64,000 nt of DNA. It comes from Verrucomicrobiota bacterium JB022. GTDB taxonomy: Bacteria; Verrucomicrobiota; Verrucomicrobiia; Opitutales; Oceanipulchritudinaceae. How positions within the stretch are numbered: the first letter of the stretch is position 1; every line of letters starts with the position of its first letter. The translations under genes were made by a program, and so were the position numbers. The stretch lies in the NCBI GenBank assembly GCA_030673845.1, contig JAUTCQ010000021.1:186001-250000 (forward strand). Reading direction: 5' to 3'. Shown here piece by piece: positions 6,143 to 47,841 of this stretch. The notes under the pieces were generated by a model. That model made no database searches. It saw only the letters and a list, made by a program, of their open reading frames with translations, and had not been told where the DNA came from.

Positions 6143-6222
6143 GGGACCCAAGCCTATCTAGCTCGTTCCCGCCCGACGAAAGTCCTGCTACTTCTATTGA
6201 TAAGCGAGCGAGCGGATCGAAT

Positions 6223-6250
6223 AAAGAGGATCTCCGTCGAGATCCTCTTT
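6223..6250 (-). terminator. hairpin terminator downstream of the first symporter
   Basis: A perfect 12-bp inverted repeat (AAAGAGGATCTC, loop CGTC, GAGATCCTCTTT) lies 30 bases beyond the symporter stop. On the minus strand the stem ends in CTCTTT and the following T-rich tract is short, so termination is likely but the tail is weak. Confidence 0.6.
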
Positions 6251-6280
6251 TCAACTCTACTACCAAAACGCTACTCAGGA

Positions 6281-8008: not shown

Positions 8009-8092
8009 AAAGGGTCTGGGGCAAAATAAGGGAAAGCGCGGCCGGAGCCGAACCAGAAATGGGGGAGCAAGCTCCGCCCAGAGGATTTGTGA

Positions 8093-8143
8093 TAAAAGAG
8101 GCAGCCGGCACGCTGCCACCCCCATTGGCTACACGTGCCGGCT
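8093..8143 (-). terminator. terminator downstream of the first TonB receptor
   Basis: On the minus strand a 10-bp stem (AGCCGGCACG/CGTGCCGGCT) with a ~21-base loop lies just after the receptor stop at 8158. It is followed by a short tract containing TCTTTTAT. The long loop lowers confidence slightly. Confidence 0.65.
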
Positions 8144-8157
8144 CTTGTCTCGATTGC

Positions 8158-11100
8158 CTAGAAGTAGAACGAGTTACGCAGGGTGAACACCATCGGCTCG
8201 CGGATTCTCCAGGCGGAAATGCTGCCATCGGGCTGGGCATTGACCGGGATCAGCTCGTCTCCCACCCCAATGTTGCGGACGTTGAGCTGAACGTTCCACC
8301 AAACCGGCCCCACGCGCCGGCTGTAGCCGATCCACGCATCGTAGTTGGTGATACTGGGGCCATAATAAGGCTGGGTCACGTCATACTGGGCGTCTTCGGG
8401 CGAGGTGCCAGTTACGCCATAGCCGATCTCGGCTTTGTCCTGAAAACGGATACCGCCCCCGATGTTGAAGCCCTTGAGCGGCCCCTCCGTAAACTTGTAG
8501 TTGGTGATCAGGTTGAAGCGCCACTTGCGGATTTCCGGATTGGACTGGCCGTCGAGCATCAACTCGCGCTGGAATTTGGCGTATTCGCTCTGGGCATGTT
8601 CGCGGAGCGTTTCGTTGCTCGTTGCGCTGCGGCGCAGATCACCAGCTGGCCCTGCCCAGACGGGCATAATACTTTCCTCGAGCACATAGGCGAAGGTGCT
8701 GGCCGTGTTGTCGCGCTCGGCTTCATTGCGAGCCGCATTCATCGAAATCCGCCAGTTGGGTGTGGGGTTGATCGTGGCTTCAAATTCCCAGCCTTTGGAC
8801 ACGGTATCGGAAGTGGAGACGACCGTGTTGATACGGTCTTCGTGCGTGTAACTGGTGTTACCGTCAACGTCGGTCTCGTAGCGATATTCGAAGGTGTCGA
8901 GGAACTGCTGCCCCAGCGGCGACGCCATCCAGGCATCCCAGGCCGCAAGGGCTTCCGGCAGATCGTTGTTCAGGCCTGTAGCATTGTTCTCCACCACAAA
9001 GCCGGGCTCGCGGGCGAAGGCGTTTTGGATCTCACGCAAGTTGCTGTTGGTCGAGTTCTTCGAAGATGACTCATAATGAGTGACACGGAGGGTAAGGCGG
9101 CTATCAAATACGTCCAATAGCACGCCGTATTCTTCCGTTTCACCAGATTCCGGATCGAGCTCATGGCCGAGCTGGTCGTAACGCTGCGCTGTGGGGCGGA
9201 AGTTGTCGGACTGGTTATAAATCAGGCTCAGGCCAATGTCTTTGTCGAGGTAGCGCTGGATGAAGGGCCGCAGATGAAACACACAACCGTAGCCAAACGT
9301 CTGCTGGCGGTCGGACAGGCTGGGCTGGGCACGGTAGCTGTCGTCGATGATACGCAAACCCGTCTCCGGGTCATAAGGTGCGCCGCCGGCTTCGAAGGTG
9401 TCGTAATCGTCCTGGCGCCAGCCGGCGGTCGTCACGAAAACGCCGTCCCACCAGAAGCTTTGAGCGATAAAGGCGAGGGAATCGTATTCGCCGCGGGTGC
9501 GGTTGGTGACACTCGAGGTCGTGCGGAAGTCGTGTTCGTCGTTCTGGACGAGATCAAAGTTGCGCACCTCCCAGTCCGCCAACGTGGTTGAGCCATTGAG
9601 CGGCGACTGGTAGTAGAGCACATCGACCGAGTCGAGGTCGCGCACGCCGGTCTGCACGTTAATGCCCGTCAAGTCGGCGGCTCCGGCGTCGCCCAGCCCG
9701 ATCACGCTGTCGCCGATGTAGGCGGTCTGGATCATCGCGCGGCGCGACTCATAGGAGTAGCGGCTGAGGCCGCCAGCCGGGTGGTAAGTCTCGGCCTCGG
9801 AAGTGATATAATCGAGGCCCATCAGAGTCGGGCGGCCCTGGAAGACCTCGCCGTCGACCGTCTGCCGGTTGAAGTTGCCGGTGAAGGTGTGGCGGCCCAG
9901 CAACTTCCCGATCCAGCCATCGTTGTATTTGTTGAAATCGAGCTCGTAGTAGCCCGTCAATCGGGTCGCATCGCGCACGGTGCTGCTCGAAGAGCCCCAG
10001 CCGTAGTCAGCGATGAAGGGCCGGCCAAGATTTGGGTTCGGTTCGCCGTTGGGCAGCTTGGTATTGATGTCGAGGTAGATGGTGTAGCCCGTGCTATTGA
10101 ACGGGTTATAATAGCCAAAATCCATCTCCTCGTGATCGTAGGCCACCTCAAAACCAAGCGTGTTTTCGAAGAAATGCTGCTCGAGCACGGCGGTAACGGT
10201 GTTCCACTCGGCCCACTCGCGCTTGTTGTCCCCTTCGATCATGTCGTCGTAGAAATTGAAGACGTCTGGGTCGGACAACTGCTGGTGCCGCCAGAAGTTG
10301 TACATCGGGCTGCTGCTGCCACCATTGAGCTGCTGCAGATATTGCCGGCTGCCTTGCAGTGAGACCATGCTGGCCGTCTGCAATGAGGAACCAGCGACAC
10401 GTGCCCGCTCATTCCGCGCTTCAATGGCTTGAGCGCCTGTCCCGCTGATTCCGAAGCCCTTCTGGTTGGGATCTTCGAGGATGACTCCAACGTTGGACGA
10501 CCAGGCACTGTTCATCTGGCCGTTGATGATATTCGAATTGCGGCTGCCGCTGGCGGAGCGCGGGTTCACCAGCGGATTCTCCGGAGCCTCGCCCAGAAGC
10601 GTCACCTGATTGGTGGTGGGGTCGTAAACCGGCTGCCCTACATCCCACCACCAAGTAAACGAGTCCATCGGGGGGCGGTTCTGCGGCTTGTTCGATTCCT
10701 GGTCCGCCCATTCGGCGCTGACGCGGAGGCGGGTGTTGGGGAGGATCTGCCAGGTAGCGGTGCCGTAGACGCGCCAATCCTCAATAAAGGCGGGATCCTG
10801 CTGGAATTTCTGGTCGTCATGCAACACGGCGACGCGCAAGGCCAGCTTGTCCTTGATCAGCACCTGATTATGGTCGAGCGACTGGCGGAAGGAGCCGTAT
10901 TGGTCGTTCTCCAGCTTTAGGTTGCTCTTCGTTTCCTTGAGCTGGGCAGAGATCAGGGTCGAGTTGATGATGCCAGCGGGACTGCCGAGGCCGAAGAGCA
11001 TCGAGTTTGCCCCACGGTTCAGGTCGACGCGCTCGACATTGTAGCTGTCCATCGGCACGTCGGTCGCAAAGAAGTCGCGCGTAGTGTCGGCCACGGAAAG

Positions 11101-11565
11101 GCCGCGGAAGCGGGTTGACGTCGAGGGGCTGCGGTTGACCGAATCGAAATCGACATAGTTGGACGACGCGGAAGAGCCAGAGTAATTGCCGCTGACGCCC
11201 GCCACTTCAGTGCCCACGGTGTAGTTGAGCAACACGCCAAGGTCATTGGCGTTGACGTCTTCCATGAAATCCTTGGTCACAACCGAGACGGAAGCAGCGA
11301 CGTCGCTAAGGTTGCTGCGTAAGCGGGTGCCCGAAAGGGTTGAGCTTGCGCGGTAGCCAGTGTCTTCCGAGGCGTTGACGGTAAACGGCGATAGTTCGAA
11401 AATCTCGTCCTCATCCGCCGGCTGGGAGGACTTGGACTGCGCAGTCGTGCCAGCATCGTTGGCTTGGGCCGCCAGAGGCAGTGGCGTGAGCAGTGCAAGG
11501 GCGATCGTGAGCGTTGTTTCGAAGCGGAGGGGTTGACGCTTTGCTTTTGGGGAGAGGGGAAACAT
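8158..11565 (-). CDS. TonB-dependent outer-membrane receptor
   Basis: This is a 1135-residue protein. It has a signal peptide (hydrophobic to LAAQA), an acidic/serine linker with EIFELSPFTVNASED, then a plug domain (TLSGTRLRSNLSDVAASVSVVTKDFMED, quoted here in part only: VAASVSVVTKDF) and a beta-barrel ending in an aromatic residue (RNSFYF), as outer-membrane proteins do. The EDTGY.A..T..GTR pattern before the plug is typical of the very large receptor families of Opitutia-like bacteria. It should import an oligosaccharide across the outer membrane using TonB/ExbBD energy. No SusD-like lipoprotein is nearby. The symporter downstream on the same strand would complete uptake. The gene stands alone, with 219 bases to the next gene upstream. 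Confidence 0.93.
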   Translation of the reverse strand: MFPLSPKAKRQPLRFETTLTIALALLTPLPLAAQANDAGTTAQSKSSQPADEDEIFELSPFTVNASEDTGYRASSTLSGTRLRSNLSDVAASVSVVTKDFMEDVNANDLGVLLNYTVGTEVAGVSGNYSGSSASSNYVDFDSVNRSPSTSTRFRGLSVADTTRDFFATDVPMDSYNVERVDLNRGANSMLFGLGSPAGIINSTLISAQLKETKSNLKLENDQYGSFRQSLDHNQVLIKDKLALRVAVLHDDQKFQQDPAFIEDWRVYGTATWQILPNTRLRVSAEWADQESNKPQNRPPMDSFTWWWDVGQPVYDPTTNQVTLLGEAPENPLVNPRSASGSRNSNIINGQMNSAWSSNVGVILEDPNQKGFGISGTGAQAIEARNERARVAGSSLQTASMVSLQGSRQYLQQLNGGSSSPMYNFWRHQQLSDPDVFNFYDDMIEGDNKREWAEWNTVTAVLEQHFFENTLGFEVAYDHEEMDFGYYNPFNSTGYTIYLDINTKLPNGEPNPNLGRPFIADYGWGSSSSTVRDATRLTGYYELDFNKYNDGWIGKLLGRHTFTGNFNRQTVDGEVFQGRPTLMGLDYITSEAETYHPAGGLSRYSYESRRAMIQTAYIGDSVIGLGDAGAADLTGINVQTGVRDLDSVDVLYYQSPLNGSTTLADWEVRNFDLVQNDEHDFRTTSSVTNRTRGEYDSLAFIAQSFWWDGVFVTTAGWRQDDYDTFEAGGAPYDPETGLRIIDDSYRAQPSLSDRQQTFGYGCVFHLRPFIQRYLDKDIGLSLIYNQSDNFRPTAQRYDQLGHELDPESGETEEYGVLLDVFDSRLTLRVTHYESSSKNSTNSNLREIQNAFAREPGFVVENNATGLNNDLPEALAAWDAWMASPLGQQFLDTFEYRYETDVDGNTSYTHEDRINTVVSTSDTVSKGWEFEATINPTPNWRISMNAARNEAERDNTASTFAYVLEESIMPVWAGPAGDLRRSATSNETLREHAQSEYAKFQRELMLDGQSNPEIRKWRFNLITNYKFTEGPLKGFNIGGGIRFQDKAEIGYGVTGTSPEDAQYDVTQPYYGPSITNYDAWIGYSRRVGPVWWNVQLNVRNIGVGDELIPVNAQPDGSISAWRIREPMVFTLRNSFYF

Positions 11566-11784: not shown

Positions 11785-13587
11785 TTACGAATCCTGCTCG
11801 ATCTGGGACTGCCAACGCTTGCGAATGTAGTGCGCGGCTGCCTTGGGCTCGCGTTGGCGAGTAAACACGCCCTTCTTGTTTCCTCCGAAGCGTACCAGCC
11901 CCTGCTTAGTCTGGAAGTCGGCAAAATTCCATACGTGTTCTCCAATGACGAATGGACATTGGTCGATCACTCGATTGCAGGCATCCAGATAATCGATCTG
12001 AAACTCCTCCGAAAACATGCGCGAGGGCAATACGTGATAGCCTGAAATTGTATCCGCTCCATATTCGGTAAACAAGACTGGTTTTTTCCATTTACGATGC
12101 CACTCCTGCAGTTCGTTCATCAACTTCAGTTCGATTGTATCCAAGCGTGCGGTGTCAAAATACCAGCCATAATAGCGATTTACGCCCAGCACATCGACGG
12201 TGTCGCCCACCTTTGAAAACCAGGCAAAGTTGTATTCAACGATCGTCAACGGACGGGTCGAGTCCAGTTCGCGCACCAGGGCTGCGACCTCGCGGTAATG
12301 CTGCGCACCCTCGTCTTCGTGGGTAGCTGTCTCGTTGCCAAGGCTCCACATGACCACGCAGGGGTGATTCTTGTCGCGGGCGATCATCTCGCGGATGCAG
12401 TCCTTGTGGTGCTCCCGTAGCTCCTTGCCCGCTCGCTTTTCGGTAAAGACGTCTTTGGTCGGCAGGTCTTCGTCGTTGAAAAAATAGAGGCCCACCGCCG
12501 GCACTTCGTCAATTATCACGATACCCTCGCGGTCAGCCATGCGCATGATCTCTTCCGAATATGGGTAGTGCGTGGTCCGGAACGAGTTGGCGTTGATCCA
12601 CTTGAGCAGGTTGAAGTCGCGCTGGTTGAGCGCTTCGTCGAGGCCCTTGCCCCGCACGTCGGAGTCTTCATGCTTGCCGAATCCACGGAAATAAAAGGGC
12701 TTTTCGTTCAGCAAAAAGCGATCGCCGTCGATGCGTATGGTGCGGATGCCGACCGGCAGGCGGTAAACGTCGAAGGGCTCACCGTTTTCGTCCAATGCCT
12801 CGACTTTCAACTCGTAGAGATAAGGATGGCCCGGCTCCCAAAGTTCAGGGCGGCTGACCTGTAGCTCGACTGTAGTGCCCGTATCGGTCGCAACAGCAGC
12901 ACCATCGGCCGCATGTAGTGTGAGGCGGTGTTGGGGGGCGCCGGATCCGACGGTGACCTTCACAACTCCGCATCTGCGTTCATCGAGCGTCGTAACCACC
13001 GTGATATCTTCAATGCCGTGGGGCGGCGTTACTACGAGTCGCACCGGGCGATGGATGCCGCTGTAGTTGAAGAAATCGTGGTAGGACACCTGGTGCTGGT
13101 AGCCGGGAGGGTATGGCGGCTTGCCGGTCTCGGTCACAATCTCGCCTGGTGGCAACGTGGTCCAGTCTAGGATGTTGTCGACGCGGACGACGATGGTGTT
13201 TTCCGCTCCATAATGAATGGCCTCGGCTGCGGGCCCTTCAAAGGGCAGGTAGCCGCCTTTATGGCGCACGATCTCCACTCCATTGCACCAGACGATGGCA
13301 CGGTGTGAGGCCGATCCGATGCGAATCGCCACTCGTTGGCCTTGCCAGCTGCGAGGCACAAAAAAGGTACGACGATACCAGACGGGGCCAATATGATCCC
13401 GCACGCGCGCCTCGGTCGTGATGTCGTTGTAACTGGCAGGCACGGGCATGCGCAGCGTGTTTCCAGGCAAAGTGGTTTGTTCAAACCAGCGTTCGCTCAG
13501 GCCGCGATTGTCCGCGTCGAGCTGGAAATCCCAGAGGCCGTTCAGCTCCTTGACTTCGCGGGTTTCTGAATCGATGGGGTATAGCAT
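11785..13587 (-). CDS. uidA: beta-glucuronidase, GH2
   Basis: This is a 600-residue protein, the length of E. coli UidA, and similar to it along its whole length (LNGLWDF, VWYRR.FFVP, GGY.PFE, DFFNY.GIHRPV, FRGFGKHED, NRYYGWY). The acid/base is E419 in WSLGNE and the nucleophile E508 in FTEYGAD. The N-x-K motif that reads the substrate carboxylate in true beta-glucuronidases is present as N570-K-K572. It removes terminal beta-D-glucuronic acid from glucuronides or oligosaccharides. No signal peptide is seen, so it is cytoplasmic. It is the last gene of a tight minus-strand run with kinase, isomerase, oxidoreductases and aldolase, which implies the released glucuronate is catabolised by that run. 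Confidence 0.95.
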   Translation of the reverse strand: MLYPIDSETREVKELNGLWDFQLDADNRGLSERWFEQTTLPGNTLRMPVPASYNDITTEARVRDHIGPVWYRRTFFVPRSWQGQRVAIRIGSASHRAIVWCNGVEIVRHKGGYLPFEGPAAEAIHYGAENTIVVRVDNILDWTTLPPGEIVTETGKPPYPPGYQHQVSYHDFFNYSGIHRPVRLVVTPPHGIEDITVVTTLDERRCGVVKVTVGSGAPQHRLTLHAADGAAVATDTGTTVELQVSRPELWEPGHPYLYELKVEALDENGEPFDVYRLPVGIRTIRIDGDRFLLNEKPFYFRGFGKHEDSDVRGKGLDEALNQRDFNLLKWINANSFRTTHYPYSEEIMRMADREGIVIIDEVPAVGLYFFNDEDLPTKDVFTEKRAGKELREHHKDCIREMIARDKNHPCVVMWSLGNETATHEDEGAQHYREVAALVRELDSTRPLTIVEYNFAWFSKVGDTVDVLGVNRYYGWYFDTARLDTIELKLMNELQEWHRKWKKPVLFTEYGADTISGYHVLPSRMFSEEFQIDYLDACNRVIDQCPFVIGEHVWNFADFQTKQGLVRFGGNKKGVFTRQREPKAAAHYIRKRWQSQIEQDS

Positions 13588-13610
13588 ATTGAAAAAAGTG
13601 ATGTGGGTTT

Positions 13611-14645
13611 TCAGGCTCGGGATGGCGCGAAGGCCATGAGGGACCGGCAGCCGTAATCAGCCGCCAAGGCGATGCAGTCTTCTGCCTTCTGGACCCCGGC
13701 GGAGCACGTGACGTCACGCAACGAAGCGGCCGCAGCGGCGACGCCCAACTCTAGGGCGGCGGCCATCGGGCGCTCGTCGTGCAGGCAATAGAGCACGCCG
13801 GCGGCAAAGGCATCCCCTGCCCCAGCAGCTCCGGCAATGAATTCCTGCGGCAGGCATACGCTGCCTTGCCAGCAGACTTCCCCTTGTGCGGAACAGGCAC
13901 AGGCGCCTTCCGGGAAGTGGACCACCACCCACTCGCGCACGCCTTGAGCAACAAGCTGACGAGCAGCCTTCTCCACCGAAGATGTGCAAAGCGCCTCGCC
14001 TTGGCGGAGGGAGATGCCGGTCAGGCCCTCGCATTCGAAATCGTTGATGAACAGCAGATCGACCAGCGGCAGCACCGGGCTCACGACTTGCCGCAGCCGG
14101 GGGCCGGCTTCGCTGACGCAGTCGAGTGACACTTTGAGGCCCGCCGAACGAGCGCGTTCAAGCACTGCGGCCGCCACCGGTCGTCCGTCGGGGCCGATTG
14201 CATCCAAGCGGTCGAGTAACAGCAGATAGCCCAAATGGAACCAACGGGCGGCCTGCCCCTCGAGATTGAAGTGCTCCGGCCCGAGCAGTGCATTTGCACC
14301 CCGGTGGTGGAAAAAGGTACGGCGCCCCGTCGAGGCCACCGTCATCACGTCGGTGTAGGAGGTGGGGGCGGCAGGAGTCGTCGCCAGTTGGGCGGTATCG
14401 ATCCCGTGGTTGCGGCAGTCCGCAATGATGTCCCTCCCATACGCGTCATCGCCCACCAGGCCCACCGCACGTAGCGGGAAGCGCGCCCCCAATAGTGCGA
14501 GATCCTTGAGCAGGTTGTAGGGGGAGCCACCGTTGCCTGCCGTCTGGCTGCGGATCGTAGCGAGAGCGTCCTGCTCAGGCCATACGTCGAGCAACTTCAC
14601 CTGATCGAGGATCCAGTTCCCCGCAGCAATAATTCCTTCAGGCAT
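13611..14645 (-). CDS. PfkB-family sugar kinase
   Basis: This is a 344-residue ribokinase-fold kinase. The N-terminal AAGNWILDQV and TAGNGGSPYNLL segments match PfkB motif 1 (glycine pair plus substrate contacts). The C-terminal GAAGAGDAFAAG carries the anion hole and catalytic base D278. PfkB members phosphorylate furanose-form ketoses or related sugars with ATP; which sugar this one uses is not readable. It lies three bases from the cupin isomerase gene upstream and 23 bases from uidA downstream. It would phosphorylate the ketose made by the isomerase, ahead of the class I aldolase in the same run. KDG kinase or fructokinase activity is an alternative. Confidence 0.88.
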   Translation of the reverse strand: MPEGIIAAGNWILDQVKLLDVWPEQDALATIRSQTAGNGGSPYNLLKDLALLGARFPLRAVGLVGDDAYGRDIIADCRNHGIDTAQLATTPAAPTSYTDVMTVASTGRRTFFHHRGANALLGPEHFNLEGQAARWFHLGYLLLLDRLDAIGPDGRPVAAAVLERARSAGLKVSLDCVSEAGPRLRQVVSPVLPLVDLLFINDFECEGLTGISLRQGEALCTSSVEKAARQLVAQGVREWVVVHFPEGACACSAQGEVCWQGSVCLPQEFIAGAAGAGDAFAAGVLYCLHDERPMAAALELGVAAAAASLRDVTCSAGVQKAEDCIALAADYGCRSLMAFAPSRA

Positions 14646-14648
14646 AGC

Positions 14649-15218
14649 TCAGCGCTCCGAGAGTAAACGCACCGCCGGGGCCTCATCCTCCTCAATGGGA
14701 GGGAAGCGCCCGACGGATGCGTCGAGGAAGAAGTTGTCGTGGAGGTCGTCGTTGGCGGTGGAGACTTCGCCAATGACGCATTCCGCGCTGAGTGGAGCGA
14801 ACTCGTGCCACACCCCGGGCACCAGCGTGACGCGCGACCCAGCCTCCAGCACCAGATCGTGTCCGGAACGGACTTCGAGCGACTGGCCATTGACCTGCAC
14901 GCAGAACGGCTCGTCGTCGAACCGCCCGGGCCGGTCGTGCCACAGGCGCAAGCGCAGGCGGCCCGCGCGGCAGATGATGTCTTCTTTCTTATGCCGGTGA
15001 GTGTGACAAGGAGTCAGCTGCCCCCGGCGCGCATACATCAGCTTTTCGCAGTATTCGGGCTCGGTTGCGAGATTGACGAGGACGAGACCATATTGCTCAA
15101 ACCGGCCGCGCCCAAAGTCCGTAACGTCCCATGCGGGCTTGGGCGGGAGGTGCCAGCCGTTGGCGTGGAAGCAAGCGGCTGCGGCCTGACAGACGGCGTT
15201 GATTTCGGAGCGCTTCAT
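14649..15218 (-). CDS. D-lyxose isomerase-type cupin sugar isomerase
   Basis: This is a 189-residue single-domain cupin. The opening KRSEINAVCQAA and the DVTDFGRGRF..GL.L segment match the D-lyxose ketol-isomerase family. Expected metal ligands are visible as H72 and/or H74, E79 (in TPCHTHRHKKED) and H138 (VWHEF). Characterised members interconvert D-lyxose/D-xylulose and D-mannose/D-fructose with Mn2+. Here, among uronide genes, it may act on a uronate or another aldose; that is inference. It is coding-coupled to the oxidoreductase upstream (gap of four bases) and to the kinase downstream (gap of three), so it sits in the middle of one transcript. Confidence 0.82.
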   Translation of the reverse strand: MKRSEINAVCQAAAACFHANGWHLPPKPAWDVTDFGRGRFEQYGLVLVNLATEPEYCEKLMYARRGQLTPCHTHRHKKEDIICRAGRLRLRLWHDRPGRFDDEPFCVQVNGQSLEVRSGHDLVLEAGSRVTLVPGVWHEFAPLSAECVIGEVSTANDDLHDNFFLDASVGRFPPIEEDEAPAVRLLSER

Positions 15219-15222
15219 CGCT

Positions 15223-16371
15223 TCAGGAGGGCTGGACGGTTGAAACCTGGACCACGCGACCTTCCCGGTGGCTTACCAGCGCGGCGGCCCAGATTGCATG
15301 CTGGGCGACCGCCTCGTCGGGCGTGGCGCAGCCAAAACGCCGGCCAAGAGCCCCAGCACGCTCGGCGAGAAAGGCGGCCCACATCTGCATCAGCACATCC
15401 GGGAAACCCGGCTCGAAAATGCCGCCGGTAACGGTTTTGAAAGGCGTGGCAAAGCCGAGGTCGGTCTTTTGCCACCACTGCTCGCGATCACGCCGGTAGA
15501 TCCAGAGCGTCTTGGGCTCCTTGGTTGAAAATCGGGCGCCCGCGTCGGTGCCGAGGACTTCGAGCGACCAAGTGTTGGTTTCAGTCGGTGCCATGCGCTT
15601 CATCTCAAAAGTCACCGGGACTTCCTGGCCTTCGAGCGTGGCAGTTCCGTGGACGGTGGCATTGTCCCAAGTGTCGCAGACTGCCACGCCTCCCTGGCCG
15701 TCGGGGCGCTCGCGGTAAATCTTCTGGAGCTGCCCGTAGACCCGGTGCGGCGTCCAGCCAAGGCGAACCGGGACGTGAGTAACGTGCAGGCCGAGGTCGT
15801 TCATGACACCGGCATCGCCGCAAAAGCGGTTCTGGCGCTTCCAGTTGATCGGCTTGCGCGGATCGAGGTCGCTGGAGTGCAGGAATGACGAGCGAATGTG
15901 GAGCAGCTTGCCCAGATCCAGCTCGCGAACCGCCTGGATTACACGCTGCACACCGGGCAGGAAGGGAAATTCTGAGGAAACCCGCACAAATCGCCCAAGA
16001 GCCTTGGCTTCGTCGCGGATGCGTTCCGCCGCCGCCAGATCGATCCCAAAGGGTTTCTCTGCCAGCAGATCTTTCCCTGCCCGCAAGACGTCGAGGTAGA
16101 TCGCCTCGTGCAGGTGGTGCGGCACTGCGACATAGACCACGTCTACCTCGTCCAGCGCCAGCAGTTGATGGTGATCGGTGCAGAAATTCGCTACGGTTGG
16201 CACTTGCCGGAACCAGTCGAGAGCGGACGGGTTGACATCGCAGACCGCAGTCAGGACGGGGGTCACCGGGCAATCGAGCAAGGTGAACCAGCGACCGAAA
16301 GCACTGGCAACTTCTCGGCCCATGAGGCCTGCGCCGATGACGCCGACGCGAACTGTGGGAGAAGGGCTCAT
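15223..16371 (-). CDS. Gfo/Idh/MocA-family oxidoreductase
   Basis: This 382-residue protein has an N-terminal Rossmann fold (VRVGVIGAGLMG, dinucleotide glycine pattern), the family EKPF motif (LLAEKPFGI, containing the conserved Lys), and a C-terminal alpha/beta substrate domain with NDLGLHVTHV, whose His is the usual active-site position. It should oxidise or reduce a sugar or sugar acid with NAD(P). Its stop is five bases from the lyxose-isomerase-type gene, and its ATG overlaps the stop of the aldolase gene by four bases (ATGA), so the two are translationally coupled. The substrate may be a uronate or its ketose; this is not readable from sequence. Confidence 0.88.
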   Translation of the reverse strand: MSPSPTVRVGVIGAGLMGREVASAFGRWFTLLDCPVTPVLTAVCDVNPSALDWFRQVPTVANFCTDHHQLLALDEVDVVYVAVPHHLHEAIYLDVLRAGKDLLAEKPFGIDLAAAERIRDEAKALGRFVRVSSEFPFLPGVQRVIQAVRELDLGKLLHIRSSFLHSSDLDPRKPINWKRQNRFCGDAGVMNDLGLHVTHVPVRLGWTPHRVYGQLQKIYRERPDGQGGVAVCDTWDNATVHGTATLEGQEVPVTFEMKRMAPTETNTWSLEVLGTDAGARFSTKEPKTLWIYRRDREQWWQKTDLGFATPFKTVTGGIFEPGFPDVLMQMWAAFLAERAGALGRRFGCATPDEAVAQHAIWAAALVSHREGRVVQVSTVQPS

Positions 16372-17198
16372 GCGACGATTTGCAGGGCTTGTTCGACGGT
16401 GGCGCCTTCGTGCACGATCGCCATCAGTGCGCGGGTAATCGCAGCAGGGTTGGCGTGCTGGATGATATTGCGGCCGTAGACGATCCCGGCGGCCCCCTGC
16501 TCCATCAGCGTATGGGTGCGCTCAAAGATCTCGCGCTCACTGGCCTTGCTGCCGCCCCGCACCAGCACCGGGATGCCACCGGCTGTCTCGATCACGCGGT
16601 GGTAGTCGCGTGCATCCTGTGTCGGGTCGGCTTTGACGATGTCGGCTCCCAATTCGACAGCCTGGCGCACCAACGGGATGATCTTGGCCGGGTCGCCGTC
16701 GACCATGTAGCCTCCTGCCTTTTCGTTAGGCTGGAAAACGAGCGGCTCGATCATCAGCGGCATGCTATAGCGGTCGCAGGCCGGCTTGATGCGCAGGATA
16801 TTCTCGATGCACTGGTCGGCGACTTCGGGTTCGCCCGGGATGCTGAAGAGGTTGACCACAACCGATGTGGCGTCGAGGCGCAGAGCCTGCTCCACCGGGT
16901 CGGCAATCATGCGGGAAAAGAGCGTGCGGGGCAGCTTGCGACCGTAGACGTTGGCCACATCCGTGCGCAGGACGAGGGCCGGCTTGTGCCGCACCTTGAT
17001 CCCCTGCAGATGACTTGCCTGGCCGACGGTCAGCTGGATGGCATCCGGCGCGGCCGCGACGAGCTGGGCCACGGCATGGGGCAGGTGTTCGATCCCCTGC
17101 AGGAAATCGCTTTCGTTAAAAAAGCCGTGGTCGATCGCCACGTCGAAGCAGCGTCCGGTCTCGGGGTTGAACAAGCGGTTGATACGCGCAGTCTTCAT
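16368..17198 (-). CDS. class I aldolase of the DeoC/LsrF/FbaB-like group
   Basis: This is a 276-residue TIM-barrel protein starting at the ATG at 17198 (MKTARINRL); the frame further upstream does not look like protein. It has DVAIDHGFF near the N-terminus, the Schiff-base lysine in GADIVKADPT, VLVRGGSK, and a C-terminal phosphate-binding YGRNIIQHANP. This is the pattern of archaeal-type class I fructose-bisphosphate aldolases, LsrF and related enzymes. It would cleave a phosphorylated ketose, presumably the product of the PfkB kinase encoded downstream, giving DHAP plus an aldehyde or aldehyde-acid. Its stop overlaps the start of the oxidoreductase gene. The DeoR regulator gene lies 10 bases upstream. 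Confidence 0.85.
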   Translation of the reverse strand: MKTARINRLFNPETGRCFDVAIDHGFFNESDFLQGIEHLPHAVAQLVAAAPDAIQLTVGQASHLQGIKVRHKPALVLRTDVANVYGRKLPRTLFSRMIADPVEQALRLDATSVVVNLFSIPGEPEVADQCIENILRIKPACDRYSMPLMIEPLVFQPNEKAGGYMVDGDPAKIIPLVRQAVELGADIVKADPTQDARDYHRVIETAGGIPVLVRGGSKASEREIFERTHTLMEQGAAGIVYGRNIIQHANPAAITRALMAIVHEGATVEQALQIVA

Positions 17199-17208
17199 GG
17201 GAAATGGA

Positions 17209-17972
17209 TCAGACGAGGTGAATACGGACCCCTTCGGAGGCGATGCTCCGACGAACCTCGGGAGGGACAGCCTTGCCACTGATGAAATGGCTGAAGCTGC
17301 ACCAAGGGGCGAAATGGACGGCGGTGGGCTGATTGAGCTTTTCGGCTTCTGCGACCAACATGCGGCCAGTGGCGCGGCGCAGGACCTCGGACTTCACGGC
17401 CGCCTCGTGAATTTCCGTCGTATAGGCGCCATGGTCGGCGGAAAAGCCGGAGGCACCCACCACTACAAAATCGAAGCGCAAATGAGAAAGCCACGCCTGC
17501 GCCAGAGCTCCGGTCATGGCCATCGACACGCGGCGCACCTCACCCCCAATGGCTGTCAAAGCGGCTCGGGATTCGTCCGCCAGGGAAAGTAAGGGTATGG
17601 AATTGGTGAAGATCCGCAGATCCGTGCGGTCGAGCAGCAGCTTGCCGACTTCGAGGCAGGTCGTCCCGCCATCGACAAAGATGTTACCCTCGTGCGGGAT
17701 GATCGCGGCCGCCTTTTGCGCCAACCGCTCCTTCTGGTCTGCCCATCGTTGCGCCTTGGCACGGTAGTGCGGCTCCTGGCGCAGGTAGCGAGCCGGCAAA
17801 AGGCCTCCATGGCTGCGCAGCGCCTTACCGCTCGCGGCCAAGGCGGAAGCATCGCGGCGGGCCGTCGCCGGAGAGATATCGAGGCGCTCGACCAGATCTG
17901 TAATCGTCACCTTTCCATCCTCAGCAAGGATCCGGAGGATGGCGCGGTGGCGCTCTGGCGTCAGCATGGGCA
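17209..17972 (-). CDS. DeoR-family transcriptional regulator
   Basis: This protein has ~254 residues. It has an N-terminal winged helix with the DeoR signature (ERHRAILRIL, ISPATARRD, LRSHGG) and a C-terminal DeoRC sensor domain (IFVDGGTTCLEVGKLL, TNSIPL, VVGASGF). The ATG at 17972 is preferred because DeoR proteins start just before LTPERHRAIL; an upstream in-frame TTG at 17985 is less likely. Such regulators repress sugar catabolic operons and are released by a phosphorylated sugar. It is embedded in the uronide run, 10 bases from the aldolase gene, so it probably controls this operon. The inducer may be the PfkB product. Confidence 0.9.
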
Positions 17973-18069
17973 TGGGGTTATTCAAGGGTTGGAGTTAACG
18001 CGAAAAGGAGGGGTCTGGCCAAATGAGAACGAGCGATCTGCTCACCGCGCGCACAAGCGCTCAAGGGCG

Positions 18070-19227
18070 TCATGAAGGAGCGGGCGCCGCCCAACTGGCG
18101 CCCGCTTCGGAGAACAGGACACCACGCGACCACGCCCGATCAAAAACGCTCTCGAGCCCCATGATCGTGATCGCTTCCGCGCGCTCCCGGAGGACATCCG
18201 CCGCTACCGTCTGGACAGGGACCGAGCGCTGGACCATCTCAACCGCATAGGTATGAGTGCAGGCAATCTCGGGCGTGGCCATGGGAGCATCGTGCCCTTG
18301 CAGACGGTCGAGGAATGCCCGCCACATCGGCACCATGTATCGACCGGGGCGTGGCAGGGGCTCGACCTTTTGACTCCCGTCAGGCCAGGTGATGGTCACG
18401 TCTTGGCCATTGTGCCACAGCACGTTACCGGCGGCGCAGGAGACGAGAATGCGCGCCTCTCGCTCTTCCGTGCAGGCGTGAGAAGCGAGGAAGCGAATCG
18501 GCTGGCTTCGGTCCGTCATGAAACGCGCGGCAATGGTGTCGAAGTTTTCGATTGGATTTGCGCGGTAGAGCTCTGCTTCCACTCCCGTCAGCTGACAACT
18601 GACCTGCGGTGTAGCCCCCGCCCAGTAGAAGGCGAGGTTGGCGAAGTGCGCGAGCGCGTTGGAGAGCGGAGAATCATAGACGGCCTGATCCCCAACTGCT
18701 ATCCGGCCGGCCCACCCGCTTCGGGCAAAGTAGGCGAGCCCACGCGGCCAAAGCGCACCGATCTGGATCTCTCGTAGGTCCCCGAGCGCACCTTCCAGCA
18801 ACAGGCGCTTCACCTCCTGAGCCTGTGGCAGCGAAATATCCTGGAAGCCGACACCGACGAATAGCCCGCTGCGCTCGCGCGCCGCAATGATGGCCTCGAC
18901 CTCCGCAACGGTGGCCGAAAGCGGCTTTTCCACAAAGACATGGAAGCCTGCCTCCAGCGCTGCAATCGTCATACTGGCGTGGAGGTGAATCGGCGTGGGT
19001 AGGCAGACGACGTCCAGACGCCCCTGCCAAGCGCTCAACATCGCCGTATAGTTCCCGTAGATCTCGACTCCGCGACTCTCAAGGTCAGCCACGGTTTCAG
19101 GGATTTCGGCGGCATTGATCGCGACCGCGGCAACAAGCCGCACCAACCCCTGTTGTTCCAGCTCTCGCAGGGCGCGCAGGTGGTTCTGCGCGTAACCGGA
19201 TACGCCAGCAATTCCGATTGTGACCAT
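18070..19227 (-). CDS. Gfo/Idh/MocA-family oxidoreductase
   Basis: This is a 385-residue protein with an N-terminal NAD(P)-binding segment (VTIGIAGVSGYAQNHL), a LPTPIHLHASM segment and the conserved lysine in FVEKPLSA. The C-terminal domain contains NALAHFANLAFY, where the His is in the position of the family's active-site residue. It is not a close copy of the oxidoreductase at 15223-16371, so the two probably act on different intermediates. It lies 12 bases after the polysaccharide lyase gene and 97 bases before the DeoR regulator on the same strand. The substrate is presumably a lyase or glucuronidase product. Confidence 0.85.
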   Translation of the reverse strand: MVTIGIAGVSGYAQNHLRALRELEQQGLVRLVAAVAINAAEIPETVADLESRGVEIYGNYTAMLSAWQGRLDVVCLPTPIHLHASMTIAALEAGFHVFVEKPLSATVAEVEAIIAARERSGLFVGVGFQDISLPQAQEVKRLLLEGALGDLREIQIGALWPRGLAYFARSGWAGRIAVGDQAVYDSPLSNALAHFANLAFYWAGATPQVSCQLTGVEAELYRANPIENFDTIAARFMTDRSQPIRFLASHACTEEREARILVSCAAGNVLWHNGQDVTITWPDGSQKVEPLPRPGRYMVPMWRAFLDRLQGHDAPMATPEIACTHTYAVEMVQRSVPVQTVAADVLRERAEAITIMGLESVFDRAWSRGVLFSEAGASWAAPAPS

Positions 19228-19239
19228 TTGGGAAGCAGC

Positions 19240-22143
19240 TTAACGGTTTGCCTGAGGACGTTGCGGCAGCGCAAGCGGCGGCAAGGTAGGATCGGCACGC
19301 TCGATCGAGACCTTCCCGAGCTGCAGCACCCTCGGGTCTGCCTGTTCGGCCGGAACGTGCAAGCGACCATCAGCCAGAACGAAGTCTCCCGCCGGGTCCG
19401 CAAGGATCATGTTTCGCCCTTCACGGGCGAGACGACGACAGCCTATCACGGCCAGCGCCTGCAGCTCCCCAGCGGCATTGAGGCGCACCCAGAAGGCATC
19501 TGCATCCACACTCCAGCCACTCGGTCCGGCCTTCTGGCCCGCACCGACCCAATCCTGTTGACCATCGGGCCAGGTAATGACGCTGCTCCCGTTGGACGCG
19601 CTCTGGAACTGCGGACGTTCACGCGCCGGCAGGTCGGGAGGAATGGGCAACAGGCAATGGATGAACTGCGGGCGCACAGCCTCGGCTTCAACCGCCAAGC
19701 GGGGATGCTTCCCATTGCGCGTGGTCTCGAAAGGTTGGAGGTCCAACGCGAACTGCTGCGGATTCAGCACGTAGAGCTCCATATGGGCAACCTTGTCCCC
19801 GCCTTTGGGCTGAAAAACGATGGCGGGATCAGCGTCCGTCACCCGCGTGTCGGCCGCAGTGTGGAGCAACCAGCTGTAGGTATAGGGCTCCTCGTCGCGC
19901 TGGATGTCGTCGTAAATGAGCACATATGGCAATGGCTCACGCACAAAGAGTGTCGTCCGCATTGCGCGCGCGAAGTCTGTCTGGCGGTGCTTCCGGTAGG
20001 TGGCGTCCTGGAAGTTCGAAGCGTAGAAAAACTCGTAGGCGTCTTCCTGATCGACCTTGGTCAGGTCCACCACCGGAGACGGCAGGAAGCTGCGGATCCA
20101 ACCGTCGGTGCGGGCGTGAGCTCCGCCCTGCAGTTGGGGCTGCCCATCGACCAGCACGAGGTTGTGCGCAAAAGCGCTCGAGCTGCGGTCTGGCTTGGAG
20201 TCGTTGCCATACCCGGAATCGACCGCAAAATCCTGCCCGTAGGCGTAGAGCGTGAACTGGCCCTTGTCCGCCTGGTCGTGCTTGAATTCGGTGTATTGCT
20301 GGGCGTGCACTGTGAACATGACTGCGGCTTCGCCCCACCCCGTCCGCGAGACGGCGAGACCGCGCCCGGGAGCAAACGCCGCTGGGGCCTCTACGGCCGG
20401 CGCGGTGGCTTGAGCCAGCTCTTCGGCAGTAGGCGACCACAGCACGAGCGCGGGCAATGACTCCACCCCGCCCCGCAAGTCCTGTTCATCGTAAAAGAGG
20501 TGCCGCCAAATCCAGTTCGCAGTTGGATCGGCTTCCCGAAAGCGCGCATAGGTAAGCGGATCCGCGACGCGCACCACATGGTCCGAATCCATCAGATTGT
20601 TCACTCGCCCCGGCGACGGCAGGATTTCCCACCGCATCCAGTCCATGACCTGCGCGTAATGCGTTTTCGTGTATAGGTCTTCGCCTGTTGTGGCTCGCAG
20701 TGCTTCGATGAAAAACGGCGTCGCACCAGCGCCGTAGCTGAAGTAAACGGGCCCTTCGATCACGCCACCAGCGGAGTCGATCCCGAAGTCGAGATAGTCC
20801 TCAAGGTTGCGCGCCGCCTGGAAGATCCACTGGCGCACTGGGAAGTCCGTTTCTCCTTCGAGCACAAGCGCAGCGAGGCCCCACGCAGCCGACGAACCCG
20901 CGTTCCAGTTCCAGATGCGGCCTAGCGAAGACTGCCCCCAGACGCCATTGAGCGTGCCCTGATAAAGGGCATCTACTTGACGGCCGAGTGAAAGGCGCAG
21001 CTCTTGGCGTTCCTCCGGCGAAAAGCGGTCGTAGCACCAGTCGAGCCCAAACGCAGAGGCGCGGGCAAGAAAGCTGCGGGTGAGAAAGAATCCCTGCTCC
21101 ATCTGCTCGAGCTTTACGCGGCGCACGCCAGCAAGTGTTAACGCGGCAGCCGCGTCACCATATTCATCGCGCCCAGAGACGGCGTAGGCGAAGGCCAACA
21201 GCTCAATAGGCGTCGTCCACCGCCGCAGCGCCACCTCCATCTGGCTGCGCCCCTGATGCGTGGTGGCATCCAGTGCAGCATAATCGGCGAATGCCTTGGC
21301 CGGGACCTTGTAGCGAGAATCGCCCGGCGTGACATAGCGGTCGCACTCGGCCAACAGGCGCTGCCAGGCATCCCGTGCCGGACCGGCGACTGCGATACGC
21401 TGGCGAATCTCGGCCAGCTTGTCGTCATTCAAGACGACCCGTGGATGTCCAGCGGCCCAAGTGGCCTGCTCTGGCAACGTAGCGTTCCACCCTTCAAGCG
21501 ACGTGGTCGGCTTAGCCGGAGCACTGACGTGCGCATCGGCGGTAGAGCGTTCCTGAGTCGTGTCGGTGATCTCGACTCCACGCCATTGGACGGGGCCCTG
21601 CCCGCTCCACATAAAGAGCGCCACTTGAACGAATCGCGCTCGCTCGGGGGCGGTAAACGTTTGGTCGATCCGGTGCCAGCCTTCGGGCCAGCTCGTGCGG
21701 TTGAGCGCACCAATGGCATCGGCCGTCACCATCCGCCCGTCCAGACCGAAATGTAGGTGATCGGTGTCGAGCGGTTTGCGGTCGGCATCGAAAAACGTGA
21801 GGCGCAACAATACACCCGGCGTCTTCGGCTCGAAAGCGTAGCTGCCTTGGAGCCCGATTTCGGCCCCTACGCGATAAGTCTGGCCGGGCTCTATAGAAGC
21901 CAAGAAAGACTGGAGGGCAAAGCGAGCCGGTGCATCGGCACTCAGGCGGGCCACTCCATCTTTGAGAGTGTAGTCGGGATGTGCGTCGGCCGCCTTGGCG
22001 GGCACAAAGAGATTCCAGCTGCTGGAGGGATCGGCAAGGCTGATCAGGTCACGCGCCGAGACAATTACGACGCTTGCCAGTGTCACGGCACAAAACGCAC
22101 ACAGCCGACGGCTAAACCGCGGGAAGGGTAAAAGGATGCTCAT
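19240..22143 (-). CDS. secreted heparinase II/III-type polysaccharide lyase with N-terminal binding domain
   Basis: This is a 967-residue protein with a signal peptide (CAVTLASVVIVSARD). Residues ~30-200 are a beta-sandwich domain, the same one that stands alone at 1528-2124. Residues ~230-560 form an alpha/alpha toroid (HPRVVLNDDKL, GRIWNWNAGSSAAW, SAGGVIEGPVYFSY). Then comes a heparinase II/III beta-sandwich with EFKHDQADKGQF (H622) and DSGYGNDS, in place of the usual HxHxDxxSF box. Such enzymes (PL12/15/17/21-like) cleave uronic-acid polysaccharides by beta-elimination. Given the beta-glucuronidase in the same run, the substrate probably contains glucuronic acid. It is the first gene of the run and so is likely the most directly regulated. 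The exact PL family cannot be assigned here. Confidence 0.82.
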   Translation of the reverse strand: MSILLPFPRFSRRLCAFCAVTLASVVIVSARDLISLADPSSSWNLFVPAKAADAHPDYTLKDGVARLSADAPARFALQSFLASIEPGQTYRVGAEIGLQGSYAFEPKTPGVLLRLTFFDADRKPLDTDHLHFGLDGRMVTADAIGALNRTSWPEGWHRIDQTFTAPERARFVQVALFMWSGQGPVQWRGVEITDTTQERSTADAHVSAPAKPTTSLEGWNATLPEQATWAAGHPRVVLNDDKLAEIRQRIAVAGPARDAWQRLLAECDRYVTPGDSRYKVPAKAFADYAALDATTHQGRSQMEVALRRWTTPIELLAFAYAVSGRDEYGDAAAALTLAGVRRVKLEQMEQGFFLTRSFLARASAFGLDWCYDRFSPEERQELRLSLGRQVDALYQGTLNGVWGQSSLGRIWNWNAGSSAAWGLAALVLEGETDFPVRQWIFQAARNLEDYLDFGIDSAGGVIEGPVYFSYGAGATPFFIEALRATTGEDLYTKTHYAQVMDWMRWEILPSPGRVNNLMDSDHVVRVADPLTYARFREADPTANWIWRHLFYDEQDLRGGVESLPALVLWSPTAEELAQATAPAVEAPAAFAPGRGLAVSRTGWGEAAVMFTVHAQQYTEFKHDQADKGQFTLYAYGQDFAVDSGYGNDSKPDRSSSAFAHNLVLVDGQPQLQGGAHARTDGWIRSFLPSPVVDLTKVDQEDAYEFFYASNFQDATYRKHRQTDFARAMRTTLFVREPLPYVLIYDDIQRDEEPYTYSWLLHTAADTRVTDADPAIVFQPKGGDKVAHMELYVLNPQQFALDLQPFETTRNGKHPRLAVEAEAVRPQFIHCLLPIPPDLPARERPQFQSASNGSSVITWPDGQQDWVGAGQKAGPSGWSVDADAFWVRLNAAGELQALAVIGCRRLAREGRNMILADPAGDFVLADGRLHVPAEQADPRVLQLGKVSIERADPTLPPLALPQRPQANR

Positions 22144-22261: not shown

Positions 22262-23323
22262 TCACCCACGCGTCGTATAGCCCGGCGCCCACTGCCCCTC
22301 GACCAGCACCCGCATGGGATGCGCGGGCACGCCCACCTCGTTTTGCCGTAAAAGGCCTGACAAGATGTCGACAGCGGTACGGCCGATTCGCCGGGAATCT
22401 TCGTCGATGCCGCTGAACTCGCCGAGCTGATGCACAACAGTCGGAAAGGCTACGCCGACGTCCTCCGGCACCCGCCTCCCCAGCTTTTGCAGGGCCGGAA
22501 TTATCTCGCGGTGGAGCGTCACAACCGCATCCGGCTCGTGTTCAAGAAACCACTGATCGAACTGCGCTGGATCCAACGGCAAACCATCCTGCAAGTGTAG
22601 CGGCACACGACATTCCGGCGGCATTCTGGAAGATTCGGCCAAAAAGCCGCCTGTCCAACCCCGAGCCACGCGGTCGTCCATCTGCTGCACGATTGCAAGC
22701 CCAGGGCGCCGGTATCCTCGAGCTACAAGTTGCTGCATCAGGAGGCGCATGGACAGAAAATGGTTGCTGGCGACACAGTGGAAGATAGGGCTGCTGAGCG
22801 TGAATCCAAGCGTCACCACCACAAACCTGCCCCAGTCGAGCGAGAGGTCCGCAAACGCCTTGGGCTGAGGCGGCATGAGCAGGCCTACGATGTTGCGGGC
22901 GCGAAGGATGGAGCTCATCCGCGCCGGAGACATGCCGGGGCCGCGGAGCCAGAACGTCTCGAGCTTGAGGCCTAATTCCGTAGCTCGTTCCACCGCCGCA
23001 TCGTGGTAGAGCGTCGTCGCCGCAGTTTTCCAGCCCTGCTCGGTATCGTGGGTATTGATCCAGCCGATGGTAGAGTGATACGCCGCCGGCCGCTTGGCAT
23101 TACGATAGGAAACCAGCGCCTCCAGAGCCGGATCGGGTACGTAGCCCATCTCCTTGGCCAGCGTCCGCAGGCGTTCCCGCGTCTCCTCAGGCAACGAAGG
23201 ATGCCCACGCAGCGCCAGCGACACCGTGACCTGGCTGACGCCGGCTGCGGCCGCAATATCACGTTGGCTGACGCGCCGCCCGGGGCGCTTCGTCTTGGGG
23301 TTGGGAGCAGGAAGGGGGTCCAC
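22262..23323 (-). CDS. LacI-family transcriptional regulator
   Basis: This is a 353-residue protein with a GTG start at 23323. The N-terminal helix-turn-helix reads VSQRDIAAAAGVSQVTVSLAL, with the hinge helix region around EMGYVPDPAL. The C-terminal periplasmic-binding-protein-like sensor domain follows, including the EDVGVAFPTV segment typical of the family. The central helix-turn-helix is as in LacI/PurR, so it should bind a palindromic operator and respond to a sugar. It is divergent from the alpha-galactosidase at 23447 and lies upstream of the lyase run on the same strand, so either or both may be targets. It resembles the LacI protein at 51551-52609 in its sensor domain (SPARM..IL.AR.I.G). 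Confidence 0.92.
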   Translation of the reverse strand: MDPLPAPNPKTKRPGRRVSQRDIAAAAGVSQVTVSLALRGHPSLPEETRERLRTLAKEMGYVPDPALEALVSYRNAKRPAAYHSTIGWINTHDTEQGWKTAATTLYHDAAVERATELGLKLETFWLRGPGMSPARMSSILRARNIVGLLMPPQPKAFADLSLDWGRFVVVTLGFTLSSPIFHCVASNHFLSMRLLMQQLVARGYRRPGLAIVQQMDDRVARGWTGGFLAESSRMPPECRVPLHLQDGLPLDPAQFDQWFLEHEPDAVVTLHREIIPALQKLGRRVPEDVGVAFPTVVHQLGEFSGIDEDSRRIGRTAVDILSGLLRQNEVGVPAHPMRVLVEGQWAPGYTTRG

Positions 23324-43563: not shown

Positions 43564-43740
43564 GGGAGGGGGGAGTTGACCTTCTTAAAGCTGTCTGGAG
43601 CGCGGGCTGATCAGAGTGATATCACAATGCGACCAACGAATGAAGCCGCGCTCCATGGGGTTCTGAAAGTAGTATCTGAGTGCCGCCGCAAACGACGACT
43701 GATCAACAAGTCTCCCTGTAGATCAAGTGCGTCGAGCGCT

Positions 43741-46673: not shown

Positions 46674-46848
46674 AAACAAAGAAACCAACGTTCTCTTGAC
46701 GAGAATGGGTGGCACAAATCTCTCCAGAAATACTAGAAGTAGCCGTCTCAAGAAGGGGGCCGAGGCGCTTGTGATGCACGCCAACGGCCCCCAATATAAG
46801 GGCGGAGCGTTCAGGGGCTCCGGTCTGGTCTGTGGTCGAAAGTGACGC

Positions 46849-47817: not shown

Positions 47818-47841
47818 AAGGGAGGAGTTGTTTGGAGTGAG

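Follow-up and report, generated by a model that had tools for sequence, protein, structure and literature searches.

The region described here lies in a 64,000-nucleotide (nt) stretch of the genome of Verrucomicrobiota bacterium JB022 (assembly GCA_030673845.1, contig JAUTCQ010000021.1, positions 186,001–250,000), hereafter the window, and comprises eight open reading frames (ORFs), all on the minus strand. In the direction of reading, they encode a heparinase II/III-like polysaccharide lyase of 967 amino acids (aa) with the Pfam domain Hepar_II_III_C (19240–22143); GfoA, a Gfo/Idh/MocA oxidoreductase of 385 aa (18070–19227; GFO_IDH_MocA in Pfam and NCBIfam); a DeoR-family regulator (17209–17985; Pfam); a DhnA-type class I aldolase of 276 aa, recognized by a DeoC/LacD profile and K189 (16368–17198); a further oxidoreductase, GfoB, recognized by GFO_IDH_MocA and by co-occurrence with the DhnA aldolase (15223–16371); a short cupin of 189 aa, putatively an aldose-ketose isomerase (14649–15218; Lyx_isomer, PF07385); a PfkB-family kinase, putatively a ketose 1-kinase (13611–14645; Pfam); and a GH2 β-glucuronidase above the cut-off of the PRK10150 equivalog (11785–13587). 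The initial annotation, made from the sequence alone, named these eight genes in this order and in one direction, with which the ORFs and their Pfam and NCBIfam names agree. As listed, the aldolase frame extends to 17279; the MK start at 17198 is the start of most relatives. Intergenic distances from the lyase to the glucuronidase are 12, 84, 10, −4, 4, 3 and 23 nt, the last between the kinase end and the glucuronidase start. The earlier description of overlaps or tiny gaps thus holds for six spacings (≤23 nt, one an overlap) and fails for the widest, the 84 nt upstream of deoR. A consensus scan gave three promoter-like sites (2.2 expected), all on the plus strand, which is no signal, and 12 terminator-like sites (9.1 expected), among them a weak one directly past the glucuronidase (11695–11682, minus strand). 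A single transcript for the eight genes is plausible.

Four of these genes form a module that recurs widely, with the cupin at its centre. On sequence grounds, the 189-aa cupin is a member of a short clade of PF07385, the D-lyxose/D-mannose isomerase family. It scores 169 bits against the family profile (cut-off 20.8), and H72, H74, E79 and H138 (HxHxxxxE...H) are invariant in 13 of 13 aligned sequences; H-x-H-x4-E with a distant H is presumably the metal site of the family. Against the NCBIfam D-lyxose/D-mannose isomerase equivalog NF051472 it reaches 119.7 bits, below the cut-off of 350. Cupin matches at E ≤ 1e-10 occur in 94 of 387 genomes of a phylum sample, its own included. Matches at 53–70% identity over residues 1–188 are found in 21 further genomes, and nearly all other PF07385 matches start at residue 27–29 with ≤50% identity. 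The only congener in the sample (G134) has no cupin match, so the module is patchily distributed.

The kinase of the module is a candidate ketose 1-kinase, and its aldolase is of class I. Ketohexokinase is the top phmmer match of the kinase among solved structures (residues 5–138), and D14, G39, G40, N44 and a GAGD motif are retained in at least 94% of 53 rows. The aldolase scores 130.5 bits against the DeoC/LacD profile (cut-off 23.8), and K189, the candidate Schiff-base lysine, aligns with the lysine of MJ0400 and LsrF and is invariant in 13 of 13 sequences. Its predicted structure (predicted local distance difference test score, pLDDT, 86.9) has a fold that matches ADH synthase, LsrF and archaeal fructose-bisphosphate aldolase (FBA); for ADH synthase, a DhnA-family relative, the titles of solved structures name bound fructose 1,6-bisphosphate in one case and covalently attached dihydroxyacetone phosphate (DHAP) in another. 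GfoA stands outside the conserved module.

Contigs of named genomes were scanned with the 13-row cupin alignment, and the best 80 of 236 relatives, picked by cupin similarity, were combined with a Persicobacter plasmid and the window into a set of 82 loci. Some loci are shortened by contig ends, near-copies are retained (e.g., L109/L115, L090/L117, L091/L101), and family models were built from clusters of the same 82 loci. Hosts of the best 80 include Verrucomicrobiota, Mucilaginibacter, Pedobacter, Parapedobacter, Maribacter, Flexithrix, Fimbriimonadales, Acidimicrobiales and others. This gene neighbourhood comparison, which the initial annotation had proposed, reveals that the string DhnA-GfoB-cupin-kinase recurs across phyla, from Opitutaceae to Mucilaginibacter, Pedobacter, Parapedobacter and Flexithrix. 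In 58 of 82 loci, a kinase is encoded on the cupin strand at a distance of up to 5 kb: 50 have the PfkB type and eight a ‘prokaryotic ketohexokinase’ type (PF25270; Pfam on one member), never both. Class I aldolases occur under the same limits in 50 of 82 loci (35 with DhnA and 16 with a second family, one locus having both), and kinase and class I aldolase are found together in 44 of 82. In the Persicobacter plasmid, a class II ketose-bisphosphate aldolase occupies the aldolase position. The cupin has a DeoR relative nearby in 20 of 82 loci and a GlcD/GlcF-type D-2-hydroxyacid dehydrogenase in 14 of 82, and in L104 an aldehyde dehydrogenase stands beside it. Two Maribacter contigs (L074, L110) have a short cupin with no kinase or aldolase nearby; it instead belongs to a conserved gene block that also encodes an amidohydrolase, a CBM9 protein and a DUF7133/cytochrome c protein.

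The second class I aldolase family consists of ~350-aa proteins encoded beside the short cupin (a cluster of 21 frames, some of them the same gene counted twice), as in L038:10277–11323 (minus strand) and L070:8950–9996 (plus strand), both of which adjoin the cupin gene. The one member scanned has no Pfam match, and matches to LsrF and ADH synthase are weak. The family is predicted to fold as a class I aldolase: a structural model (pLDDT 79.8; predicted template modelling score, pTM, 0.82) aligns with ADH synthase at Z 21.3 over 248 residues (root-mean-square deviation 3.8), and with LsrF at Z 20.7, sulfohexulose-1-phosphate aldolase at 19.4 and YihT at 19.0. An hhalign comparison with the DhnA family gives E 7.6e-4 but a probability of only 25%, with GG and GR segments aligned and the lysines close. 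On the cupin tree, where labels (including that of the window) are loosely assigned, DhnA changes nine times and the second aldolase six times, with at least four changes each forced by well-supported branches. This pattern suggests repeated aldolase replacement, as might be expected of equivalent enzymes. The window falls in a moderately supported group (85/94) of 23 rows, among which Opitutaceae are numerous, and other DhnA loci lie within it, some with mannosidases. The conserved string and the exchange of kinase and aldolase for other kinds support the three-step logic first read into the operon, namely isomerization, 1-phosphorylation and aldol cleavage that yields DHAP. Upstream of the DhnA aldolase, two loci encode tandem ~600-aa proteins (L046:3851–5644 and 5780–7615; L086:4160–6037 and 6101–7930); a Pfam scan of L046:3851–5644 gave no match, and the two L086 proteins weakly resemble a PMI-like protein of the window’s own genome.

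Mannosidases are the neighbours that bear most directly on the substrate. GH92, GH38 and GH2 proteins with an Ig_mannosidase domain recur beside the module (Pfam on one member each), and the remaining mannosidase-family genes were detected with models built from clusters. When matches under 300 bits are left out (the window’s own glucuronidase and those in L063, L094 and L102), 18 of 82 loci have a mannosidase-family gene no more than 7 kb away: 11 of 36 with DhnA on either strand, five of 15 with the second aldolase only and two of 31 others. In 10 of the 18, the mannosidase gene shares the co-directional string, with the strings of L070 and L133 unreadable. For example, the string of L122 (Pedobacter cryophilus) runs on one strand from GH2 and GH92 through DhnA, GfoB, cupin and kinase to a GlcD/GlcF fusion, no gap exceeding 170 nt. 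GH92 is immediately 5′ of DhnA in L090 and L117, the kinase is followed by GH38 in L096 and L097 and by GH2 in L073 and L113, and GH92 is immediately 5′ of the cupin in L093, where no kinase stands beside that cupin. L087 and L095 likewise have a mannosidase in the co-directional string. GH92 occurs near the cupin in eight of 79 genomes, about eightfold above the 0.95 (15-kb interval) or 1.07 (17 kb) expected from the 330 GH92 genes in these genomes, L131 being left out. Eight or more such loci were reached in 1 to 9 per million simulations (P about 1e-6 to 1e-5), odds that are overstated because the genomes lack independence and GH92 genes generally sit in glycan clusters. Pfam scans of 132 of 153 large neighbour proteins gave GH92 in 11, GH2_N2 in six, GH116 in at least six, GxGYxYP in at least five and GH38 in at least two. 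The window’s enzymes are close to those of the mannosidase-linked loci L087, L105, L122 and L131, with 70–74% identity for the aldolase, 58–60% for GfoB, 57–61% for the cupin and 48–50% for the kinase. Among more distant, long-form PF07385 members, Jannaschia and Paracoccus seriniphilus (L054, L144) have sugar ABC transporter genes followed by an isomerase flanked by a ‘trehalase family’ glycosidase and a glycerate kinase. Mannosylglycerate hydrolase belongs to GH63, and mannosylglycerate use would fit these operons if the glycosidase were of that kind.

Sugar release in the window itself is assigned to other enzymes. The glucuronidase scores 768.3 bits against the PRK10150 β-glucuronidase equivalog (cut-off 544), and close to its C-terminus it carries the GNKKG motif of GUS enzymes. 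Hepar_II_III_C is the sole Pfam domain of the lyase, which has only weak matches to 8khv, the oligoalginate lyase 3a0o and heparinase II; assignment as heparinase HepB was rejected at 32.9 bits (equivalog cut-off 600). No lyase relative was found at E ≤ 1e-60 in the other 386 of 387 phylum-sample genomes, with up to two candidates scored per genome, so there is no neighbourhood comparison for the lyase. Nor did blastp detect lyase relatives in the other 81 cupin loci, and glucuronidase relatives there are GH2 proteins in five loci at 20–27% identity only. The link of glucuronidase and lyase to the module is peculiar to the window, plus, loosely, the Persicobacter plasmid. Together, the two enzymes would open a glucuronate-containing glycan.

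The initial annotation considered that the operon may be an undescribed uronate pathway and listed UxaC-, UxuAB- or KdgA-type genes as missing. They are indeed absent from the operon (no UxaC, UxuA or KdgA among ten locus proteins scanned with Pfam) but not from the genome (4.35 Mb, 25 contigs). A UxaC gene lies on contig C20, where the other genes of its one-strand string encode a LacI regulator, a short-chain dehydrogenase and two hydroxyacid dehydrogenases, and contig C11 carries a UxuA-like gene and KdgA. The operon therefore need not carry its own glucuronate route. With one query each from the same genome, blastp (E ≤ 1e-6) found no UxaC, UxuA or KdgA relative in the 82 cupin loci, which were searched up to ~10 kb per side (~15 kb in L052) and are often shortened. 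These results and the mannosidase neighbours in 18 of 82 loci speak against a uronate as the substrate of the module.

We propose instead that the cupin, PfkB kinase, DhnA aldolase and GfoB constitute a D-mannose catabolic module encoded with a lyase and a glucuronidase, a reading to which we assign a probability slightly above one half (about 0.53). Its substrates and reactions are those that we infer from the observed genes, their linkage, the mannosidase enrichment and the presence of uronate genes outside this locus. The cupin would convert free D-mannose to D-fructose, the kinase (PfkB or ketohexokinase type) would form fructose 1-phosphate and the aldolase would cleave it to DHAP and D-glyceraldehyde. 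The C3 product might then be oxidized or reduced by GfoB, an aldehyde dehydrogenase or another enzyme, and the GlcD-type dehydrogenase near 14 of 82 cupins suggests that D-glycerate is an intermediate. GfoB, which accompanies the DhnA aldolase, may act on the C3 product or on a sugar intermediate. The glycan targeted in the window probably contains both glucuronate and mannose, and released glucuronate would enter the UxaC/UxuA/KdgA route encoded elsewhere in the genome.

Several observations weigh against this proposal. No mannosidase lies within 7 kb in 64 of 82 loci, and GH116, which has no mannose specificity, also recurs (eight loci). Kinase and class I aldolase are both absent near the cupin in 18 of 82 loci. 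The window lacks a mannosidase and releases sugars, on this evidence, with the glucuronidase and a lyase of unassigned specificity; in the genome as a whole there is a single GH92 gene, on a different contig, and GH38 is absent. Mannose-6-phosphate isomerase of PF01238 has no match in the same genome, although PF20511, the type I catalytic domain, reaches 37.7 bits (cut-off 22); absence of the enzyme was therefore discarded as evidence, and a standard mannose 6-phosphate route may also exist there. The family profile of the kinase matches YdjH (94 bits) and also adenosine kinases above ketohexokinase (59.6 bits). Archaeal FBA uses a tyrosine in retro-aldol cleavage; by sequence, the module aldolase shows none at the aligned position, where the alignment is gapped and places E151 and LVF(Q/R)xN. 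GfoB is found in precisely the 35 DhnA loci (35/35) and in none of the others, and 15 of 16 second-aldolase loci lack it. Such strict attachment to a single aldolase type sits uneasily with the proposal. Fructose 1-phosphate could also be phosphorylated to fructose 1,6-bisphosphate instead of being cleaved, by analogy with Pseudomonas (PMC6293094).

The apparent lack of the tyrosine and the strict pairing of GfoB with DhnA are the basis of an alternative chemistry in which GfoB would oxidize C4 of fructose 1-phosphate, the DhnA protein, a relative of LsrF, would cleave the resulting β-diketone to DHAP and D-glycerate (or a thioester), and GlcD/GlcF would oxidize the glycerate. It would explain the presence of GfoB in 35 of 35 DhnA loci and its absence from 15 of 16 second-aldolase loci, as well as the recurrent D-2-hydroxyacid dehydrogenase (14/82) without a separate aldehyde dehydrogenase; we regard it as a long shot. 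A different sugar of mannose or lyxose configuration (D-lyxose, a 6-deoxy-D-mannose such as D-rhamnose, or a methylated mannose), with a correspondingly different C3 or C2 product, is unlikely yet deserves consideration, as PF07385 enzymes were named first for D-lyxose and the GlcD/GlcF-type dehydrogenase would also suit D-lactate from a 6-deoxy sugar. The recurrence of three separate mannosidase families beside the module argues for mannose itself.

An Embden-Meyerhof-Parnas (EMP)-type uronate route, in which the cupin would convert D-glucuronate or D-mannuronate to D-fructuronate, with C1 phosphorylation and aldol cleavage to DHAP and tartronate semialdehyde, seems to us rather improbable. 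The glucuronidase and lyase share the operon, the Persicobacter cassette is surrounded by heparinase II/III, alginate-lyase-family and GH88 genes, and YdjH, the top solved match of the kinase profile, reportedly prefers carboxylated sugars. L035 adds a 3-hydroxyisobutyrate-dehydrogenase-family gene directly after the short cupin (L035:10444–11328), for which the nearest assignment is tartronate semialdehyde reductase (128 bits, cut-off 341); its presence would fit a uronate route and counts against mannose. Set against these points are the closeness of the window’s enzymes to those of mannosidase-linked loci, the uronate genes elsewhere in the genome and their absence from the 82 loci. Moreover, a GH88 query across the cupin loci matched only its own source (blastp), and no GarR-type reductase was found among the operon’s proteins. 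A uronate variant confined to this window is conceivable. It is also very unlikely, in our judgement, that a mannose module, a glucuronidase and a lyase are merely adjacent and separately regulated: the 84 nt upstream of deoR and the scarcity of lyase and glucuronidase relatives in the other 81 loci would suit such a mixture, whereas eight co-directional genes with otherwise minimal spacing, and a glucuronidase that follows the kinase so closely, favor one unit.

Genes around the operon extend this picture, and the whole locus reads as a glycan-use cluster. Upstream of the lyase is a LacI-family regulator (22262–23323, minus strand; Pfam), and 219 nt downstream of the glucuronidase is a TonB-dependent receptor with a plug domain (8158–11565, minus strand), presumably the outer-membrane importer of the locus. 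A sodium:solute symporter (6281–8125, minus strand; Pfam) would serve as inner-membrane sugar importer, and downstream of it a 952-aa β-helix protein with two CBM_4_9 stretches (3293–6151, minus strand) may be a second lyase or glycosidase. Divergent from the LacI gene is a Melibiase-domain (GH36-type) protein (23447–25603; Pfam), for which the top NCBIfam model is β-L-arabinopyranosidase at 174.5 bits, far under the cut-off of 1100. A second glycan-use cluster at 41791–51426 encodes a sodium:solute symporter, a GH2 protein, a TonB-dependent receptor and two proteins of 400 and 322 aa without Pfam matches.

If the mannose reading is correct, mannose use in many Verrucomicrobiota and Bacteroidota bypasses mannose 6-phosphate and proceeds, as in liver, via fructose 1-phosphate, with a route assembled from other enzyme families. 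Functions would follow for the short cupin clade, for a Gfo/Idh clade and for a class I aldolase family that has no Pfam match. It would also set right the tempting, probably mistaken view that such operons encode uronate pathways.

Comparison with known systems places the module among several pathways of similar logic. In hepatic fructolysis, ketohexokinase and aldolase B convert fructose through fructose 1-phosphate to DHAP and glyceraldehyde; the chemistry proposed here is alike, in a bacterial, cupin-fed form with a DhnA-type or unnamed class I aldolase. The sulfo-EMP pathway combines the isomerase YihS, kinase YihV, class I aldolase YihT and reductase YihU. It shares with the module an isomerase, a 1-kinase, a class I DHAP aldolase and an oxidoreductase, and the second aldolase fold matches YihT; identity was rejected because the isomerase is PF07385 rather than AGE-type YihS, the aldolase is nearest to ADH synthase and LsrF, and the oxidoreductases are Gfo/Idh proteins. 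The myo-inositol pathway (IolG, IolB, IolC, IolJ) offers a similar set of Gfo/Idh, cupin, PfkB kinase and aldolase, and was set aside on the cupin family, on a kinase score for IolC of 69.3 bits (cut-off 300) and on the lack of any Iol family above cut-off in the ten proteins. The early comparison with inositol and sulfo-EMP modules is thus one of architecture and not of identity. L-Fucose and L-rhamnose pathways follow the same order of isomerase, 1-kinase and aldolase with enzymes of other families. The canonical glucuronate pathway (UxaC, UxuB, UxuA, KdgK, KdgA) would take the glucuronate freed by the GH2 enzyme; the operon was rejected as a canonical glucuronate operon on its own lack of these genes. 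In Pseudomonas (PMC6293094), mannose is first isomerized to fructose, and fructose 1-phosphate, an intermediate of fructose use, is made by a phosphotransferase system (PTS) and then phosphorylated to fructose 1,6-bisphosphate; the genome concerned has no annotated mannose isomerase gene. Here, unlike in that account, a soluble kinase and an aldolase share a string with the isomerase, which points to direct cleavage. No description of an operon with isomerase, soluble 1-kinase, aldolase and Gfo/Idh protein was found in the open-licence literature, a search outside which most subscription journals fall. Isomerization of mannose to fructose is already known, and the operon is a variant of the isomerase, 1-kinase and aldolase kind.

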